Shown: positions 4,881-62,963 of the stretch, piece after piece
How positions within the stretch are numbered: the first letter of the stretch is position 1
How the letters are laid out: each line of letters begins with the position of its first letter
Source: Thermoplasmata archaeon
Lineage (GTDB): Archaea; Thermoplasmatota; Thermoplasmata; Thermoplasmatales; Thermoplasmataceae
Direction: 5' to 3'
Assembly (NCBI GenBank): GCA_021797735.1
Contig: JAJZZE010000045.1
Location: forward strand, 62,001-126,000
Length of the DNA stretch: 64,000 bases
Made by a program: the position numbers and the translations under genes
Notes under the pieces: generated by a model
Told to the model about the DNA's origin: nothing
What the model saw: only the letters and a program-made list of their open reading frames with translations
Databases searched by the model: none

Positions 4881-5320
4881 TAAAAATGGACGATGTAATA
4901 AATATCTGGTCATTACTTGATGATGTGATTGCTGGATACAAAAGAGATATGAAAAATAAATTATCAAAGATCGATTTGAGTATAACAGATTATAAAATAT
5001 TATATATGGTAAAGGACACGGAAAAACCAATGAAATGCATTGCCGATAGTTTATCGCTGGCAAAGGGATGGGTAACAGATATAATAGATAATCTTGAAGA
5101 GAAAAATTTAATTATGAGAGTACACAATGAGGATGACCGGAGAGTAATAAAGATAAAAATAACCGATAAGGGAATGAAAAGATATAATGAAATGAGGCAG
5201 TTCATAAAGGATGCAATAGAAGATTCCCTGAAGGAACTTGACCCTGCCGAGATAAAATCATTTGAAAGTATTCTAAATAAACTAAGCAATAAAATGAAAA
5301 ACCAGGTAAAGGAAATATAA
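4877..5320 (+). CDS. MarR-family transcriptional regulator
   Basis: A 147-residue winged-helix regulator of the MarR type. Helix-turn-helix residues lie at about 53-75 ([20 protein letters not shown]) and the wing contains DDRR (86-89), the family's DNA-contact signature. The gene overlaps the exporter stop by ATGA and is translationally coupled to it. It probably represses the exporter operon until a ligand binds. An alternative start is Met4. A run of six T at 5324-5329 after the stop may terminate the operon. Confidence 0.88.
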
Positions 5321-5334
5321 TTATTTTTTATATG

Positions 5335-6336
5335 TTATTTAAATACAATTAGGGGTTTTATAAATTTTTTTGTCTGTGCCGTAAATATTTTATCAGCGTT
5401 ATCCAGGTCTACCTTTAAATCCTCCATGCCGTTTACATCGATTAGACCAGACTGGATTAAATTTATAGCCTTTCTCATTGTATATGGATTTATAAAATCG
5501 CCGAAAATAGATATCTCCTTACTATAAATTTTATTTGCATCCATTTCAACGTTTTCATAGGGTGGATAAACTGCAAATGCAAATATTTTGCCCGATGGTG
5601 AAACCACATCAGGTGTTTTTTTAAGAATATCATTACTTCCTGTTGTCTCTATTACAAGGCTTGCGTTATTTACAATACTGCTCTGCATCAGTCCATCCAT
5701 ATTCTCAAAAATTTTATCTGCACCGTATTTTTTTGCAAGTTCATTCCTGAATTTATTTCTGCCCATTACATATACGGGATAATATCCCATGCCCTTTAAT
5801 ATCTGCAGGAATGTTAAACCTATAAAGCCTGTACCAAGAATTACTGCAGAACCGCCCAGTGGTATATTTGCTGTTTCAAAGGCATGTACTATACACGATA
5901 CGGGTTCTGCTAGGGCTGCGGCCTCAAAACTCATTTCATCAGGTATTTTATAGACAACCTTTTCCGGGACAGTTACATATTCAGAATACCCGCCGGGATA
6001 ATTTATGCCGACACTTCTCATATTTTCACAGAAATTCTCGTTGCCTGATTTGCAGTTTTCACAGTAGCCGCACGTTATATTGGGATTTATAGCAACACGG
6101 TCATTTTTTTTAAAATTTTTTATGTTTTTGCCTGTTTTATAAACTATGCCACTAACCTCATGGCCAAGAACAATTGGATATTCTATTGCCTTATGTTCAC
6201 CCTTATATGCATGAAAATCTGTTCCACATATTCCACACGCCATCGTTTTTACTAAAATCCCATCATCAGGGGGATCTTCTATACTGTTATCTGCAAATTT
6301 CAGTTTGCCAGGTGATTCAAGTACACACGATTTCAT
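5335..6336 (-). CDS. Zinc-dependent medium-chain alcohol/polyol dehydrogenase
   Basis: A 333-residue medium-chain dehydrogenase. The catalytic zinc region has Cys37 (GICGTD) and His59-Glu60 (LGHE). The structural zinc loop has four Cys at 89, 92, 95 and 103. The Rossmann loop GTGFIG is at 168-173. Closest general resemblance is to sorbitol, threonine or glucose dehydrogenases of the MDR superfamily, and the substrate cannot be fixed from sequence. It is convergent with marR (14 nt apart) and divergent from the TGT gene. Confidence 0.85.
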   Translation of the reverse strand: MKSCVLESPGKLKFADNSIEDPPDDGILVKTMACGICGTDFHAYKGEHKAIEYPIVLGHEVSGIVYKTGKNIKNFKKNDRVAINPNITCGYCENCKSGNENFCENMRSVGINYPGGYSEYVTVPEKVVYKIPDEMSFEAAALAEPVSCIVHAFETANIPLGGSAVILGTGFIGLTFLQILKGMGYYPVYVMGRNKFRNELAKKYGADKIFENMDGLMQSSIVNNASLVIETTGSNDILKKTPDVVSPSGKIFAFAVYPPYENVEMDANKIYSKEISIFGDFINPYTMRKAINLIQSGLIDVNGMEDLKVDLDNADKIFTAQTKKFIKPLIVFK

Positions 6337-41870: not shown

Positions 41871-42560
41871 TTATATATAGTATTTTTCAAGTTTTTTATA
41901 CATACCGTCGTTATTCATTACATCTTTTAATTTTAAAAGCATTTTCTGATTATCATATTTGAACCTTTTAAACGTAATATTATCACTGTCTGTATCCATT
42001 ATAGCATATGATGGCAGAGGGATATAATCTCTAGGCTGGCCGATGCTACCCGGATTTATTATTTTATTTCTGTATACCATCATAAAATGTGTGTGTCCTA
42101 TGAGAATATAATCGTATTTATTAAAAAAATCCTTGTCCCTGAAAACCTTTTCAGCCTCACTTGCAAATAGATATCCGTCAATATTATTATACGGTGACCC
42201 ATGTGTCAGGTAAAACCTTTTATTTTCTATATTAATTTCCTTATTTATGCTGAAGTTCTTTATAAATTCAATATCGTTTTTTGATAATATTTTCATGGAT
42301 ATATTTTTTCTCGTGTAATCGCTTAATTCAAGCATTTCAAATGAGCAGTTGCACGATGTATTATTTACAACAGCATTATCATGGTTTCCCATTATGTTTA
42401 TATCTGAATTATCCCTTAAAAAATCAATAACCTTATCGGGTTCTGGACCATAATCAACGGCATCGCCCAGAAAAATTAATTTATCAAATTTTTCATTATC
42501 ATATGCTGTTTTTAATGCATCGTAATTTCCGTGTATATCCGAAATAATAAACAGTTTCAT
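41871..42560 (-). CDS. Metallophosphoesterase, YfcE/ApaH-like
   Basis: 229 residues with the complete calcineurin-like motif set: SDIHGN, GDAVDYG, GNHDNA, THGSP and GHTHFM, then NPGSIGQPRD. Two-metal phosphodiesterase or phosphatase. The substrate may be a cyclic or dinucleotide. The open frame begins 16 codons upstream, but homology begins at MKLFIISDIHGN, so 42560 is the start. Divergent from arsR. Confidence 0.85.
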   Translation of the reverse strand: MKLFIISDIHGNYDALKTAYDNEKFDKLIFLGDAVDYGPEPDKVIDFLRDNSDINIMGNHDNAVVNNTSCNCSFEMLELSDYTRKNISMKILSKNDIEFIKNFSINKEINIENKRFYLTHGSPYNNIDGYLFASEAEKVFRDKDFFNKYDYILIGHTHFMMVYRNKIINPGSIGQPRDYIPLPSYAIMDTDSDNITFKRFKYDNQKMLLKLKDVMNNDGMYKKLEKYYI

Positions 42561-42646
42561 GGGTAGAGATTGCACATAATTATATAAATAATATGTATAT
42601 TTATTCATATGAAAAATATTTTATATATATTAACAATTATCCACCA

Positions 42647-42967
42647 ATGCAAAAAACCATTGAAAAAATTACAGATTTAAGCATATATAAAATGTTATCA
42701 GATAACATAAGGCTTAGAATAATGAAATTACTTATGGAAAGGGAGAGAAACGTTTCAGATATAATCAACGCCTTCAGTATAGACCAGCCACTGATATCAC
42801 ACAAATTAAGGGAATTGCGCGAGAATGGGCTCGTGGTCAGTTACAGGTCAGGTAGAAATATCATATACAAAATCTCCAGTGAGTCACTGATAAACATTAT
42901 AAAAATTACGGAAAATACCGGAAACAAACTTGATAAAACATGTAATTGCGCAGAGTGTATTGAATGA
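42647..42967 (+). CDS. arsR: ArsR-family metalloid-responsive repressor
   Basis: 106 residues with a winged helix: MLSDNIRLRIMKLL, then FSIDQPLISHKLRELRENGLV, wing SYRSGRNIIYKI. The helix-3 ELCVCD site of classic ArsR is absent. Instead Cys99, Cys101 and Cys104 (CNCAEC) lie at the extreme C-terminus, where another ArsR subtype binds As(III). TTTTATATATATT about 25 nt upstream supports the ATG at 42647. It overlaps the arsB start by ATGA and would repress the pair until arsenite binds. Confidence 0.88.
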   Translation: MQKTIEKITDLSIYKMLSDNIRLRIMKLLMERERNVSDIINAFSIDQPLISHKLRELRENGLVVSYRSGRNIIYKISSESLINIIKITENTGNKLDKTCNCAECIE

Positions 42968-44247
42968 AATTATTATTTTATGTATCTTTAATTGTATTCA
43001 TAGCAACATTAGTCCTTGTATTAAAAAGACCAAAAAATATAGGAATAGGTTATTCGGCCTTAATAGGTGCACTTATAACGGTAATACTTGGAATATCAAC
43101 ATTAAAGGACATAATAACGGTATTCGATATTGTATGGAATGCCACATTCACGTTTATATCCATAATAATTATCTCATTAATTCTGGATGAAGCTGGATTT
43201 TTTGAGTATATAGCATACAAAATTGCACTGTATGCAAAGGGCAACGGGAAAAAACTATTTGTTTTTATTATACTGCTGGGTTCTGCCATATCAGCAATAT
43301 TTGCAAATGATGGCACTGCCCTGATTTTAACACCAATTGTTTATGCCATCCTTGTAAGGTCTAATACACCGAAAAACAAGATACTTCCATTTATAATGGC
43401 AACGGGTTTTATAGCAGATACGGCAAGCATACCATTTATTGTGAGCAATTTAGTAAATCTGGTTACTGCCGGTTATTTCAGCATTACATTTATAAAATAT
43501 ACTGAAATAATGCTGCTTCCTGATGCTGTTTCTATAATAGCAAGCATAACTGTTCTGTATATGTTTTATAGAAAGGAGATAACCGATTATAGAATAGATA
43601 AAAATATGGATATTAATGCCCTAATAAAGGATAAAAAGGTATTTAAAATTGCATTTCCAATGATAGTATTATTAATGGTTTTTTACTTTTTATCCGGTAT
43701 AATAAAAATAGATATAGCATTTATAGCAATGCCCTTTGCATTATTCTTTTACATACTTGCAAGGGTTGATAGAAAAATAGATGCAAATTACGTAATAAAA
43801 ATAGCACCCTGGCAGATTGTATTATTTTCTCTGGGGATGTATATTATAGTATTCGGAATGAGCAATGAGGGTTTAAATATAATATATATAGGCATTTTAA
43901 AATATATAACTTCATTTAAAGGTCCCATACCATTTATATTTTCCGGGTTCTTCTTTGCATTTAATGCAGCGGTAATGAACAATATGCCATCTGTGATGGT
44001 TGGTGATCTGGCAATATCCGGATTAAAAAATCAGGGGTTACTTATGTATGCAAACGTTATTGGCAATGATATCGGGCCGAAATTTACACCAATAGGTTCA
44101 CTGGCAACAATGCTGTGGTTATACACACTGGAAAGAAAAAACGCAATAAAAATCTCATATGGGTATTATATGAAGGTAGGATTAATTCTGGCTTTGCCGG
44201 TTTTATTCTTTACATTATTATCATTATATGTGGTTTCGTTGATTTAG
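42964..44247 (+). CDS. arsB: Arsenite efflux carrier ArsB
   Basis: 427 residues with 11-12 spans, ion-transporter (ArsB/NhaD) superfamily. Typical segments are FANDGTALILTPIVYAI, TGFIADTASIPFIVSNLVNLVTAGYF and a C-terminal GNDIGPKFTPIGSLATMLWL. It pumps arsenite out driven by membrane potential. Coupled by ATGA to arsR. No arsA or arsM seen. Confidence 0.9.
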   Translation: MKLLFYVSLIVFIATLVLVLKRPKNIGIGYSALIGALITVILGISTLKDIITVFDIVWNATFTFISIIIISLILDEAGFFEYIAYKIALYAKGNGKKLFVFIILLGSAISAIFANDGTALILTPIVYAILVRSNTPKNKILPFIMATGFIADTASIPFIVSNLVNLVTAGYFSITFIKYTEIMLLPDAVSIIASITVLYMFYRKEITDYRIDKNMDINALIKDKKVFKIAFPMIVLLMVFYFLSGIIKIDIAFIAMPFALFFYILARVDRKIDANYVIKIAPWQIVLFSLGMYIIVFGMSNEGLNIIYIGILKYITSFKGPIPFIFSGFFFAFNAAVMNNMPSVMVGDLAISGLKNQGLLMYANVIGNDIGPKFTPIGSLATMLWLYTLERKNAIKISYGYYMKVGLILALPVLFFTLLSLYVVSLI

Positions 44248-45313
44248 GGATTTATTTTTGTTTACAGAGTATTATCACTACATTAGCGTTCGCTTAATTT
44301 ATATGCTATATAAGTTTCATCTATCCTATACTTTCACTTAAATATGGCAGGCTATTTGTTTATGTCATCAGGATATAAATATAGTCCATCAATTAGGAGA
44401 ATGCTAATCTACTATGTTATCAGTAAAATTGGGATAATGAAATGTCGGATAAGGGTACCAATTTTTAAAATACAAAAACCAACTATTGGGTATTACCAAA
44501 AATCTTTCTACTCTTCTTTACCTCATTAATTTCCCACTGTTGATGACGACGGAAGCCAGAAAAAGCAGATCATTTCACAAATCGTAATGGGCCACAATCA
44601 ACACAAAGAACAGTAATTATCCACATTTGTAAAATTACACTTACCGCATAACAGCCATATTACTGACTGAATACCATACCTTAACGTTTTCATATAACGG
44701 GAGTTCCAGGAAAATTGTGATATGAAATCACTCAGGTATTGCGTGTTTTATTGCTTTTTTCTACTTTAATTCCCGCTTCCTCATCGTGGCTATTTCAATA
44801 CCACTGCACCAATTGGCATTCACCGTTTAATGGCAATGATTCCACCACTCACAATCATGCTGGAAATATTATTCCAGTATTTCAGTGCGAACCCTATTGT
44901 CTGCATTTCCTCCAGAGAGTATTAGGATATGTTTGCAATCGTATGGTACCTTACCCTTCCATCTACAACGTATGGGTTTATAATGTACCGTGTGTAGCTC
45001 TTGCCATCAACTATCCTGGTGACAACGTCCGCATATATACTCTACTAATACTTAACAGCATATAAATTTCTGTAGAATCGTGTCTATATCCATGAAATTA
45101 CAAACAGTCACCAGTGCTGTTAAATACAGGGAATTTATACAATTTTATAGCCAAAATTTTCTGAGACTTCCGATATAAGCTAATAAGAATAGGTTTTTAG
45201 AAAACATCTATTCTTATTTTTTGTATTTAACTCAATCGCTATTGTATTGAATATTATTTAAATATTATCAAACACAACATTTAACATGATAAATAATATA
45301 TAGCAAGTTTTAT
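44248..45313. other. Gene-poor accessory region with repeat copy and coding debris
   Basis: A 61-codon ORF at 44344-44529 (MAGYLFMSSGYKYSPSIRRM onward) has TATATGCTATATAAG at the right distance and runs into the first 108-bp repeat, so it may be a gene cut by that repeat. From 44617 to about 45070 hydrophobic codons appear in shifting frames (for example PPLTIMLEILFQYFSANP). This suggests a decayed membrane-protein gene. 45180-45310 is AT-rich promoter sequence. Confidence 0.4.
44509..44616 (+). repeat. 108-bp direct repeat, copy A
   Basis: Runs from TACTCTTCTTTACCTCATTA to CACAAAGAACAGTAA. It matches copy B (46482-46589) over 108 nt with two differences that I can see (C/T and C/A). Both copies are on the same strand about 1.97 kb apart. 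The repeat is richer in G+C than its surroundings. Conceptual translation reads VDDDGSQKKQIISQIVMG before a stop, possibly a transposase fragment. Confidence 0.85.
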
Positions 45314-45333
45314 ATATTATATTATATTATATT
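45314..45333 (+). repeat. Four tandem ATATT units abutting a start codon
   Basis: ATATT is repeated exactly four times at 45314-45333 and the next base is the A of the ATG at 45334. The tract lies between the TATA-like TTTATATA (45308-45315) and the start, so changes in copy number would change the promoter-to-start spacing. Confidence 0.6.
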
Positions 45334-46260
45334 ATGAAGAGAAGCAATATAGTAATAGCCATAGCCATTCTGGTAGTTGCAATGTTTATCACGATGTCTT
45401 TTAATAATGCCTCATTAAATAATATCAACAATATAAATGAGAGACCAGCTTCGGGCAATAAGACAGATAAATATGTAAAAATAAATAATATTACATTCAT
45501 GAATAATTTTAATGTTTCCAATAATGGCATAATAAAAATAAACAATATAAATAAAACTTCCATAAACAATATTTATGCATATAAAAATAATATAAAAAGT
45601 AATGATAATATTACAAATAGCATAATATCATACACCTCAATACATAAAAATATCACAAAGAATAATTATATGAATTACACATCATTCAATTTCGATAAAA
45701 ATAGCAATATAATACACGCAATGACATTTACCGAGAAATTCAATAACTATAAGGTTCAGATTGCAGATATAATATTCAAGCACGACAATGAAAATATATC
45801 GGATATTTATGCCAACATTGTACCATTAAATTCTTCTAAGATATTATTGGGGAATGAGTTTACTCTAAACTATAAATCATCATACAATAATGAAATGAAA
45901 ACATTAATAAACAGTATAGAGTTAATATCATTTGGTTATATGAATTCTAATAATAATACATTAAATAAATTCGGTATAGAATATTCATATATAGCTATAG
46001 CAATGAATAATATGTTATCATCAACAAATAACAATATTAAAAATATGCAAATAAATGGAACGTATAGTATATTAATAGATTATAATTGGGGATGCATAGA
46101 CTCACTTATAGGTGCTTTTGGTGGTGCTACTGCCTTTGAAGTATTTTTAATCGTTGCGTTATTATCAAGTGATCCAATAGGATGGGTTGTTATAGCTAGT
46201 TTGGCTGTGACATTGGCTTTAACCGGAGTTTCTATAGATGGTATAATTGTATCATGTTAG
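45334..46260 (+). CDS. Secreted Asn-rich precursor with hydrophobic two-Cys C-terminal domain
   Basis: 308 residues. A signal-like segment (5-22) is followed by about 220 residues extremely rich in Asn, Ile, Lys and Ser with many N-x-S/T sequons. The C-terminal 56 residues (253-308) are different: Gly/Ala/Val/Leu-rich, starting WGCIDSLIGAFGGATAFEVF and ending DGIIVSC. The only two cysteines are 254 and 308, framing this domain. Long leader plus compact Cys-bounded hydrophobic tail resembles precursors of secreted archaeal peptide antibiotics in layout only. It overlaps a small membrane-protein gene by 7 nt. Confidence 0.65.
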   Translation: MKRSNIVIAIAILVVAMFITMSFNNASLNNINNINERPASGNKTDKYVKINNITFMNNFNVSNNGIIKINNINKTSINNIYAYKNNIKSNDNITNSIISYTSIHKNITKNNYMNYTSFNFDKNSNIIHAMTFTEKFNNYKVQIADIIFKHDNENISDIYANIVPLNSSKILLGNEFTLNYKSSYNNEMKTLINSIELISFGYMNSNNNTLNKFGIEYSYIAIAMNNMLSSTNNNIKNMQINGTYSILIDYNWGCIDSLIGAFGGATAFEVFLIVALLSSDPIGWVVIASLAVTLALTGVSIDGIIVSC

Positions 46261-46454
46261 GTGATTATATGAATATCAAAAAAATAATTATAATATCCTA
46301 TTTCGCTGTTTTATTGTTGTCTATAAATGCCGTTATAGAAGGTTTTTTAATACATAATAATGTTTTTATTTATATAGGTATAATCGGTATAATATTTTCA
46401 ATAATATTATTATCGCTTTTATTATTGAATAAAATGCCTAATAAATATATATAG
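46254..46454 (+). CDS. Small two-TM membrane protein, candidate partner/immunity protein
   Basis: 66 residues with two hydrophobic segments (about 9-28 and 34-58), a KK before the first and a short polar tail. It begins inside the last codons of the precursor gene. An ATG at 46269 preceded by GGTGA (46261-46265) gives a 61-residue version and is the likelier start. Coupling and topology suggest a protein that protects against, or helps export, the upstream product. This is inference. Confidence 0.6.
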   Translation: MLGDYMNIKKIIIISYFAVLLLSINAVIEGFLIHNNVFIYIGIIGIIFSIILLSLLLLNKMPNKYI

Positions 46455-46481
46455 AAATAAAAAAATAGGAATTAGTGAAAT

Positions 46482-46589
46482 TACTCTTCTTTACCTCATT
46501 AATTTCCCATTGTTGATGACGACGGAAGCCAGAAAAAGCAGATCATTTCACAAATCGTAATGGGACACAATCAACACAAAGAACAGTAA
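46482..46589 (+). repeat. 108-bp direct repeat, copy B
   Basis: Second copy of the repeat at 44509-44616, same orientation, two mismatches. It lies 27 nt after the stop of the small membrane-protein gene, so the two copies bracket the precursor cassette. Confidence 0.85.
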
Positions 46590-46625
46590 ATAAAATATAA
46601 ATAACATACAGCAATTACTCTACAA

Positions 46626-47216
46626 ATGTATAGCATTTATATCCTGCTACCTGTAACAATCCTATTAACAACAGCAATTTTGGCATTCATGCATATGCTT
46701 GCCCCGGACCACTGGACACCTATATTATCATATTCCCTTAAAAACAAGGTGGACCGTAAAAAAACAGGTGTAATATCACTTTCTTTGGGATTCCTCCACG
46801 GGTTATTCTCAGCACTGCTATCATTATTAATAGTTTTTGTTGGAATTTATTTTTTCCCGGCATATTATGTTAGAATTTTTTCCATCCTTTTACTGGTATT
46901 TATCGCAATTTACATAATTATCAATGCACATTTTGAAAATGAAAATGATAAAGGTATAAGTAGATCAATGTTACTGGTCAGTGTGATACCTGACCCGGCG
47001 ATAGTACCCTTTATCTTACTGGCAATAATCTATGGCATTTCCTTTGTATATATTGCAGTTGTATTATTTATTGTTATATCTACATTATCTTTATTTATCG
47101 TTACAATAGGATTAGGCAACATCATAAAAAGTAAAATAAATAAAATTACACCAAAAAATGTGGATTATTTGGTATCTCTAATTTTATTATTGACGGCTAT
47201 TTTTATTGTGGTATAA
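46626..47216 (+). CDS. Membrane protein with HMLAPDHW motif, metal-transporter-like
   Basis: 196 residues and six predicted spans. TM1 carries HMLAPDHW (about 22-29), comparable with the HxxxxD/HA-E-PDH motifs of NicO/UreH-type nickel and cobalt carriers. A second feature is SLGFLHGLFSALLSLL in TM2. Probably a divergent member of that superfamily. The metal is unknown. It follows the second direct repeat by 36 nt, so its promoter lies in or beside the repeat. Confidence 0.6.
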   Translation: MYSIYILLPVTILLTTAILAFMHMLAPDHWTPILSYSLKNKVDRKKTGVISLSLGFLHGLFSALLSLLIVFVGIYFFPAYYVRIFSILLLVFIAIYIIINAHFENENDKGISRSMLLVSVIPDPAIVPFILLAIIYGISFVYIAVVLFIVISTLSLFIVTIGLGNIIKSKINKITPKNVDYLVSLILLLTAIFIVV

Positions 47217-47519
47217 ATAGTAGTTTACCGGGATATGATAATACTCAAATCGATTTCAGGCACATAGTTTTTCTACTATGAAAATCAACGGTTTAATTGA
47301 AGCACCATACCAGTTAAAATGCGATAATTTATTAATTTTAACACATGATTATGAATGCGTTACTGAAAAAACGGTAAGAAAATTACCGTGATGCCCGCAT
47401 GGAAACAGTTAGTCAGGTATTATATGAAATAAATATGATTAACCTGCAATAATACATCTGCCGTAATTTATATTTTATAGATTAAAATATTATAGATGTA
47501 TATAATATCGGCGGTAAGC
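47217..47519. other. Spacer with a short unassigned ORF and hairpin
   Basis: A 37-codon plus-strand ORF at 47278-47391 (MKINGLIEAPYQLKCDNLLI onward) ends within a perfect hairpin ACGGTAA/TTACCGT (47371-47389). No homology is recognised and no TATA precedes it. The right end contains the amidohydrolase promoter (TTTATATTTTATAG around 47466). Confidence 0.35.
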
Positions 47520-61907: not shown

Positions 61908-62963
61908 ATGTCAGGGATAGTCAGCTATGGTTCATATATCCCATATTACCGGATTAAACCAGAAGAGATCGCAAGAATATGGGGGGACGAACCTGAAAGG
62001 ATGAAGAAAAATTTATTTATTTTAAGTAAGAGTGTGCCATCTCCGGATGAAGATGTTGCATCAATATCGGTTGAGGCCGCAAGAAATGCACTGAAAAGAA
62101 TGGATGTAAATCCTGAAGAAATTGGGGCAATATACGTTGGTTCAGAATCGCACCCATATGCTGTAAAGCCAACAGCAACAATTGTTGCGGCAGCAATAGG
62201 CATGCCACTTGAATACTTTGCCGCTGATTATGAATTTGCATGCAAGGCAGGAACGGCAGGCATGCAGAATGTGAAGGCAATGGTAGATTCAAATTTTATA
62301 AAATATGGATTTGCTATAGGTTCAGATACATCCCAGGGAGCACCGGGTGATGCCCTGGAATATACAGCGTCTGCCGGGGGCACTGCCATGCTGATTGGTA
62401 AAAATAATACAATAGCAGAAATAAACGATACCCTATCTGTTTCTACGGATACACCGGATTTCTGGAGAAGGGAGGGTGAGCCATATCCAAAACATGGAGA
62501 AAGATTTACAGGAGAGCCAGGATATTTCAAGCATGTGATAGCCGCATCAAAGGCAATGATGGAAAGAATGGATACAAAAAGTAGTGATTATGATTATGTG
62601 GTATTCCACCAGCCAAATGGCAAATTCCCATCAAGAGCCGCAAAAATCCTTGGATTTACCGAGGATCAGTATAAAACAGGGTTATTAACGCCATATATTG
62701 GAAATACATATTCCGGATCAATGATGACCGGTTTATCCGCTGTTCTAGATGAATCAAAACCAGAGGACAGAATTTTAGCAGTGTCGTTCGGTTCAGGAGC
62801 CGGGTCAGATGCCTTTGATATTACAGTAACAGGTGAAATGAAGGATTATAAAAGGGATAACGCCCCCACGGTAAAGAAACTAATTGAAAAGGTTAAATTT
62901 ATAGATTATGGTATGTACACGAAATTCAGAAAGATAATAGTTACAGGTGATAGTGTTGAATAA
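61908..62963 (+). CDS. Hydroxymethylglutaryl-CoA synthase, archaeal type
   Basis: 351 residues, condensing acetyl-CoA with acetoacetyl-CoA to HMG-CoA for mevalonate and archaeal lipid synthesis. Catalytic Cys112 is in [14 protein letters not shown], the general base Glu region is [13 protein letters not shown] (79-91), and the His is in [17 protein letters not shown]. Fifteen in-frame codons lie upstream, but the TATA position and homology favour 61908. It is followed by a thiolase-like gene with an 8-nt overlap, as in other archaea. Confidence 0.94.

Follow-up and report, generated by a model that had tools for sequence, protein, structure and literature searches.

Candidate polymorphic toxin–immunity units with membrane-hairpin tails in Ferroplasma and related Thermoplasmata

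What is the role of a gene for a leader-bearing, Asn-rich precursor that turns abruptly into a short hydrophobic tail, is overlapped at its end by a gene for a small membrane protein, and lies with it between two direct repeats? The question is raised by a locus in a 64,000-nucleotide stretch of DNA (hereafter the window; positions 62,001 to 126,000 of contig JAJZZE010000045.1, assembly GCA_021797735.1). The host genome is a Ferroplasma (Thermoplasmatales), assembled as 1.97 Mb in 57 contigs, with the window on contig 37. An initial annotation, made from the letters of the window, had proposed the logic of a bacteriocin and immunity pair of no recognised family, open to loss by recombination between the repeats. 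Comparison with related genomes now makes it probable that the locus holds a full-length member of a polymorphic toxin–immunity family whose tails form membrane hairpins and which is present in Ferroplasma and related Thermoplasmata.

A multi-copy precursor family with orphan tails

The precursor gene (45334..46260, + strand) encodes 308 residues in three parts, namely a hydrophobic N-terminal leader (45334..45402, +; helix at residues 3-23 in the structure model), an Asn-rich shared, or constant, region (residues 48-252; 45475..46089, +), and a variable tail (residues 254-308; 46093..46257, +). This tail, the candidate toxin, has two predicted helices between the only two cysteines of the protein, at positions 254 and 308, and contains no Lys or Arg. 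The partner reading frame (46254..46454, +) overlaps the precursor gene by 7 nt and encodes a 66-residue protein with two predicted transmembrane (TM) segments, a candidate immunity protein; an alternative internal ATG at 46269 would give 61 residues. The leader, the two lone cysteines and the overlapping two-TM partner had been described in the initial annotation and are borne out, but the multi-copy nature of the precursor family, with its orphan tails, had escaped it.

Used as a search query, the precursor matched 11 times in its own genome and, with that genome included, had matches in 19 of the 77 genomes of the same taxonomic family. Many of these spanned only residues ~170-260, some reaching the end, and lay just downstream of full-length copies. 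When the matched regions were retrieved and their reading frames written out to read the arrays, a recurrent order was seen: a full-length gene, then one for a small membrane protein, and often one to four orphan units, each formed of the last ~77 shared residues joined to a different hydrophobic tail and followed by a different membrane protein gene. Relatives have ~250 N-terminal residues in common and switch abruptly at the first Cys to another tail type. The window locus is a single unit without orphans, while several other copies in its assembly are broken at contig ends, as expected for repeated genes.

In total 51 complete tails were collected, 18 in full-length genes, 25 in orphans and eight at contig edges. 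Grouped at a similarity cut-off of 0.35, well above the shuffled-tail 99.9% level (0.19), they form 24 types, and at 0.30 they form 19. Several types are found in a full-length gene in one genome and in an orphan in another. Polymorphic toxins are defined by recombination of their C-terminal domains and by standalone cassettes carrying an immunity gene (Zhang et al. 2012, PMC3482391), and the 25 orphan units are such standalone tail–partner cassettes near full-length genes. Across ten close pairs the ratio of nonsynonymous to synonymous substitution rates (dN/dS) was 0.14-0.85 for tails and partners, except for one tail at 1.34 on few sites; with values mostly below 1, the coding sequence of most copies looks maintained, and this extends to the orphans.

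The tails are 49-72 residues long and of a common build, with exactly two Cys in 44/51, a Cys at the second position in 47/51 and a Cys within the last 25 residues in 50/51. They carry on average 0.18 Lys plus Arg and 2.2 Asp plus Glu, and two TM segments were predicted in 41/51 using the Kyte-Doolittle scale. Likewise, a TM segment was predicted in each of the 50 downstream proteins scored, and two or more in 49 of them, with a median gap of 0 nt between the tail gene and the downstream gene. For the window tail, AlphaFold2 placed helices at residues 252-277 and 283-307 (18-row alignment; mean predicted local distance difference test score, pLDDT, 51), an arrangement that would place Cys254 and Cys308 together at one end of a hairpin, which a disulfide between them probably closes.

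A profile of the shared region matched 16/117 genomes of the order, 17/400 sampled genomes of the class and 14/389 sampled genomes of the phylum. Distant members in another family (G200 and G436) keep the secreted precursor, the Cys-bounded hydrophobic end and the downstream membrane protein. Viral, phage and plasmid collections yielded no relative of the family, and the view that it belongs to no known family holds for the libraries searched: look-ups in Pfam, NCBIfam, PADLOC and PHROGs returned nothing significant, and neither did the shared region when searched against PDB sequences. In Pfam and NCBIfam neither the precursor nor 39 tails had a significant domain, and no known toxin, trafficking or processing domain was found.

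Tail exchange and co-variation with membrane partners

When the eight units of the sister genome G025 were aligned on the first tail Cys, block identity was ~0.55-0.85 before this residue and ~0.1-0.25 shortly after it, and in other genomes identity was 0.58-0.96 in the shared part versus 0.09-0.17 in the tail. At the nucleotide level the window matches its nearest relative (L031 in G025) at 88% over 45293-46089 and the match then stops, a few nt before the Cys254 codon, which corroborates the abrupt change noted at the outset. The initial annotation would have been refuted by homologues showing the tail as part of a conserved structural membrane protein; the tail is instead the most variable part. 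Furthermore, the window gene is a mosaic, with residues 1-47 nearest to the L030/L033 lineage (70%, versus 38% to L031), residues 48-252 93-96% identical to the L031 paralogue, and a tail only 22% identical to that of L031.

Similarity of the shared region was 0.78 within genomes and 0.50 between them, while that of the tails was 0.14 and 0.15, respectively; nucleotide identities behaved in the same way (shared part 87% vs 68%, tails 46% vs 45%). This indicates that copies within a genome are homogenised in their shared part and that tails spread regardless of genome. We examined co-variation using a Mantel test on 43 non-redundant units, after discarding those downstream-gene codons that share sequence with the tail gene. 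Similarity between tails followed similarity between downstream proteins (r=0.69, p=1e-4; r=0.72 when only pairs across genomes were taken), whereas the correlation of tails with the adjacent shared region was r=0.11. The family thus combines a constant N-terminal part and a variable C-terminal part with a co-varying partner gene immediately downstream, as polymorphic toxins do, and the diversification visible in these data is recombination inside the shared coding region, not excision between flanking repeats. Tails swapped between genes and co-varying with the downstream membrane protein lend strong comparative support to the bacteriocin–immunity logic first proposed, although the interpretation as a whole is partly supported.

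Matched pairs of membrane segments with high polymorphism would look identical if tail and membrane protein were paired for kin recognition, adhesion or fusion of wall-less cells, a non-toxic form of self/non-self recognition in terms of which the VARTIG modules of Thermococcales have been discussed (PMC8416519). We consider this improbable, as leaderless orphan tail–partner units are the form in which toxin–immunity pairs are usually stored (PMC3482391), although this point is not decisive. A second alternative is antigenic variation, in which the tail would anchor an N-glycosylated surface protein that is varied by silent cassettes, for example in escape from viruses; the leader, the many N-x-S/T sequons, the hydrophobic C-terminus and the silent-looking cassettes would all suit it. 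However, the exposed part is constant within a genome and the supposed anchor is variable, which is the reverse of antigenic variation, the tails are almost free of Lys and Arg, unlike anchors with basic ends, and every tail co-varies with a membrane partner, so that this explanation is distinctly improbable.

Several members of the family depart from the usual plan. A lone orphan tail–partner unit is found at L053 ~8000 (G000:C41:25980), away from any full-length copy, between two genes named by inspection as a dihydrolipoamide dehydrogenase-type oxidoreductase gene and a GcvH-type gene. At L040 of F. acidarmanus Fer1 (G020) the usual hydrophobic leader is missing at the 5' end, and the tail and partner are identical to those in G021. 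In the sister-genus loci L042 (~8655), L044 (~8530), L045 (~7410), L046 (~8395) and L062, from G002 and G003, a single additional A within a poly-A run (GTA AAA AAT AGG, or longer still) breaks the reading frame immediately behind the leader, while L043 and L064 of the same genomes have a 5-A run and are in frame; the split could reflect phase variation or a -1 slippage site of A_AAA_AAT form. A distant, 470-residue relative at L049 7587-8996 (G040) has extra N-terminal repeats, Ig/PKD-like by inspection only, before the shared region, and a Cys-bounded tail. Finally, a divergent branch is made up of L065, L066 and L067 (G009, G048 and G019), which come from three species in two genera and have almost identical four-Cys tails, and there were no orphan units in the stretches read around them.

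Flanking repeats and an empty site

The direct repeats that bracket the cassette are present as first described (44509..44619 and 46482..46592, both +); they are 111 nt long, 97% identical and spaced 1973 nt apart, and are the only two copies in this assembly. A match of this length is not due to chance. In G025, sequences matching window positions 42502-44248 (97%) and 46586-47271 (94%) lie ~168 bp apart, and the site between them contains neither the cassette nor the 108-bp repeat unit, so that segment 44249..46585 of the window is absent there. Occupancy of this orthologous site by the cassette is therefore variable, and the cassette is not fixed in all relatives. The G025 site holds an unrelated ~168-bp filler (L136 ~5212-5381, G025:C5), and the intergenic region here may be a hot spot for insertions.

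Four other places in G025 carry a solitary copy of the 108-bp unit (92-96%) between flanks that are unrelated, and the eight other genomes of the genus gave no match to it, which means that the other family members found in the genus are not repeat-bracketed. By inspection, its copies are mostly TA-bounded and their ends weakly similar, which suggests an element like a miniature inverted-repeat transposable element (MITE). The initial annotation had expected related strains that lost the cassette to retain a single repeat, and none is left at the empty G025 site. Repeat-mediated excision was rejected on this ground and because the repeats are dispersed rather than cassette-specific, and involvement of the flanking repeats in gain or loss of the cassette is unsupported by these comparisons. 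That the cassette is simply cargo of a mobile element bounded by these repeats, in a gene family otherwise unremarkable, would fit the flanking repeats and the empty sister site but is very hard to credit, as the repeat stands alone at four other G025 sites, there is no transposase inside, and tail swapping is left unexplained.

Further dispersed pieces lie between the left repeat and the precursor gene, among them a non-coding piece (44803..45177, +) with a 75%-identical dispersed copy in G025:C20. At 45182-45218, ~115 bp 5' of the precursor start, an inverted repeat of 17 bp encloses a 3-nt loop, and T-rich DNA follows. An RNA family was considered for the flanking repeats and rejected, the only match being a sub-threshold one to a human long non-coding RNA model, which we took as chance.

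Proposed action and comparison with known systems

If the family is a polymorphic toxin–immunity system, its leader would export the precursor from the cell, the Asn-rich shared region would act as carrier or presenter, and the C-terminal ~55 residues, a hydrophobic and nearly Lys/Arg-free helical hairpin, would be released by cleavage or presented. The hairpin would then insert into the membrane of competing wall-less relatives, and the small downstream membrane protein would shield the producer from its own tail type. Recombination in the ~220-bp shared arm could swap tail and immunity gene together and so generate new specificities, presumably in the direction from orphan tail–immunity units, downstream or elsewhere, which would serve as stored donors.

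A number of observations weigh against this reading. The tails match no characterised toxin or bacteriocin family, a fold search with the precursor model gave no useful match (best E 0.2), that model is itself weak (mean pLDDT 51, with the tail at about 50-66), and no processing protease or dedicated exporter is evident adjoining the window precursor gene. With regard to pairing, the downstream proteins were chosen by a scripted open reading frame rule, tail and protein have the same best partner in only 18/43 units, so that many pairings are too divergent to confirm, and the tail and partner of the window itself have only weak relatives. Part of the co-variation between neighbours follows from physical linkage alone, so that it counts as evidence for toxin–immunity pairing but not as proof. 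In addition, tail dN/dS reached 0.84 and 1.34 in two of the ten pairs, on few sites, most array-bearing genomes are metagenome-assembled genomes, and the family is lacking in two other Ferroplasma genomes (G026 and G027).

Polymorphic toxin systems have been described as generally absent in most archaeal lineages (PMC3482391). A constant N-terminus, a variable C-terminus, a partner gene directly downstream, standalone tail–partner cassettes and shared-arm recombination are common to the Ferroplasma family and to the contact-dependent inhibition (CDI; CdiA-CT/CdiI), Rhs and Maf systems (PMC3482391); however, the Ferroplasma protein is much smaller, has no RHS, haemagglutinin, pre-toxin or known trafficking domain, and its tail would be a membrane hairpin and not an enzyme. 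The C-terminal peptide logic is also that of halocins HalC8 and HalH4, in which, as summarised in PMC12893001, the active peptide is a C-terminal fragment of a secreted precursor. HalC8 and its immunity protein are encoded by one gene (PMC8628083), whereas the Ferroplasma family has a separate membrane partner gene, swappable tails and usually only two Cys; there was no NCBIfam or Pfam match to the halocin C8 family model, and with 44/51 tails having two Cys the Cys-rich peptide of that family is not seen.

VARTIG proteins of Thermococcales have a hypervariable C-terminal region, matched downstream membrane proteins and recombination, and have been likened to polymorphic toxins (PMC8416519), but they are Ig-domain proteins, whereas the window precursor has no Ig or Pfam domain, and no sequence relation was found. 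The fusellovirus toxins, namely the SSV9 B310 group (PMC8628083) and SSV1 A291 (PMC13431529), are likewise secreted archaeal antagonism factors, with allele-specific protection proposed (PMC8628083), but these are virus-encoded and have no separate partner identified, whereas the Ferroplasma family has no viral, phage or plasmid homologue found.

On balance we lean slightly towards regarding the family as an undescribed class of polymorphic toxin in wall-less acidophilic archaea, in which an exchangeable, nearly Lys/Arg-free and disulfide-closed two-helix hairpin is matched by a membrane immunity protein and diversified through orphan cassettes. For the Ferroplasma group we came across no earlier publication on a system of this kind and no paper joining Ferroplasma with 'polymorphic toxin', though Makarova et al. 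2019 (mBio 10:e00715-19), on archaeal polymorphic toxins, may mention these proteins. Little is known of archaeal antagonism, and as there are 19-24 tail types with matching partners, some of them in named Ferroplasma, the prediction of type-specific killing and immunity is directly testable. The tails, with acidic but almost no basic residues, would be protonated and membrane-prone at native pH, which suggests a weapon fit for extreme acidity, and the family provides a natural instance of cassette shuffling in Archaea.
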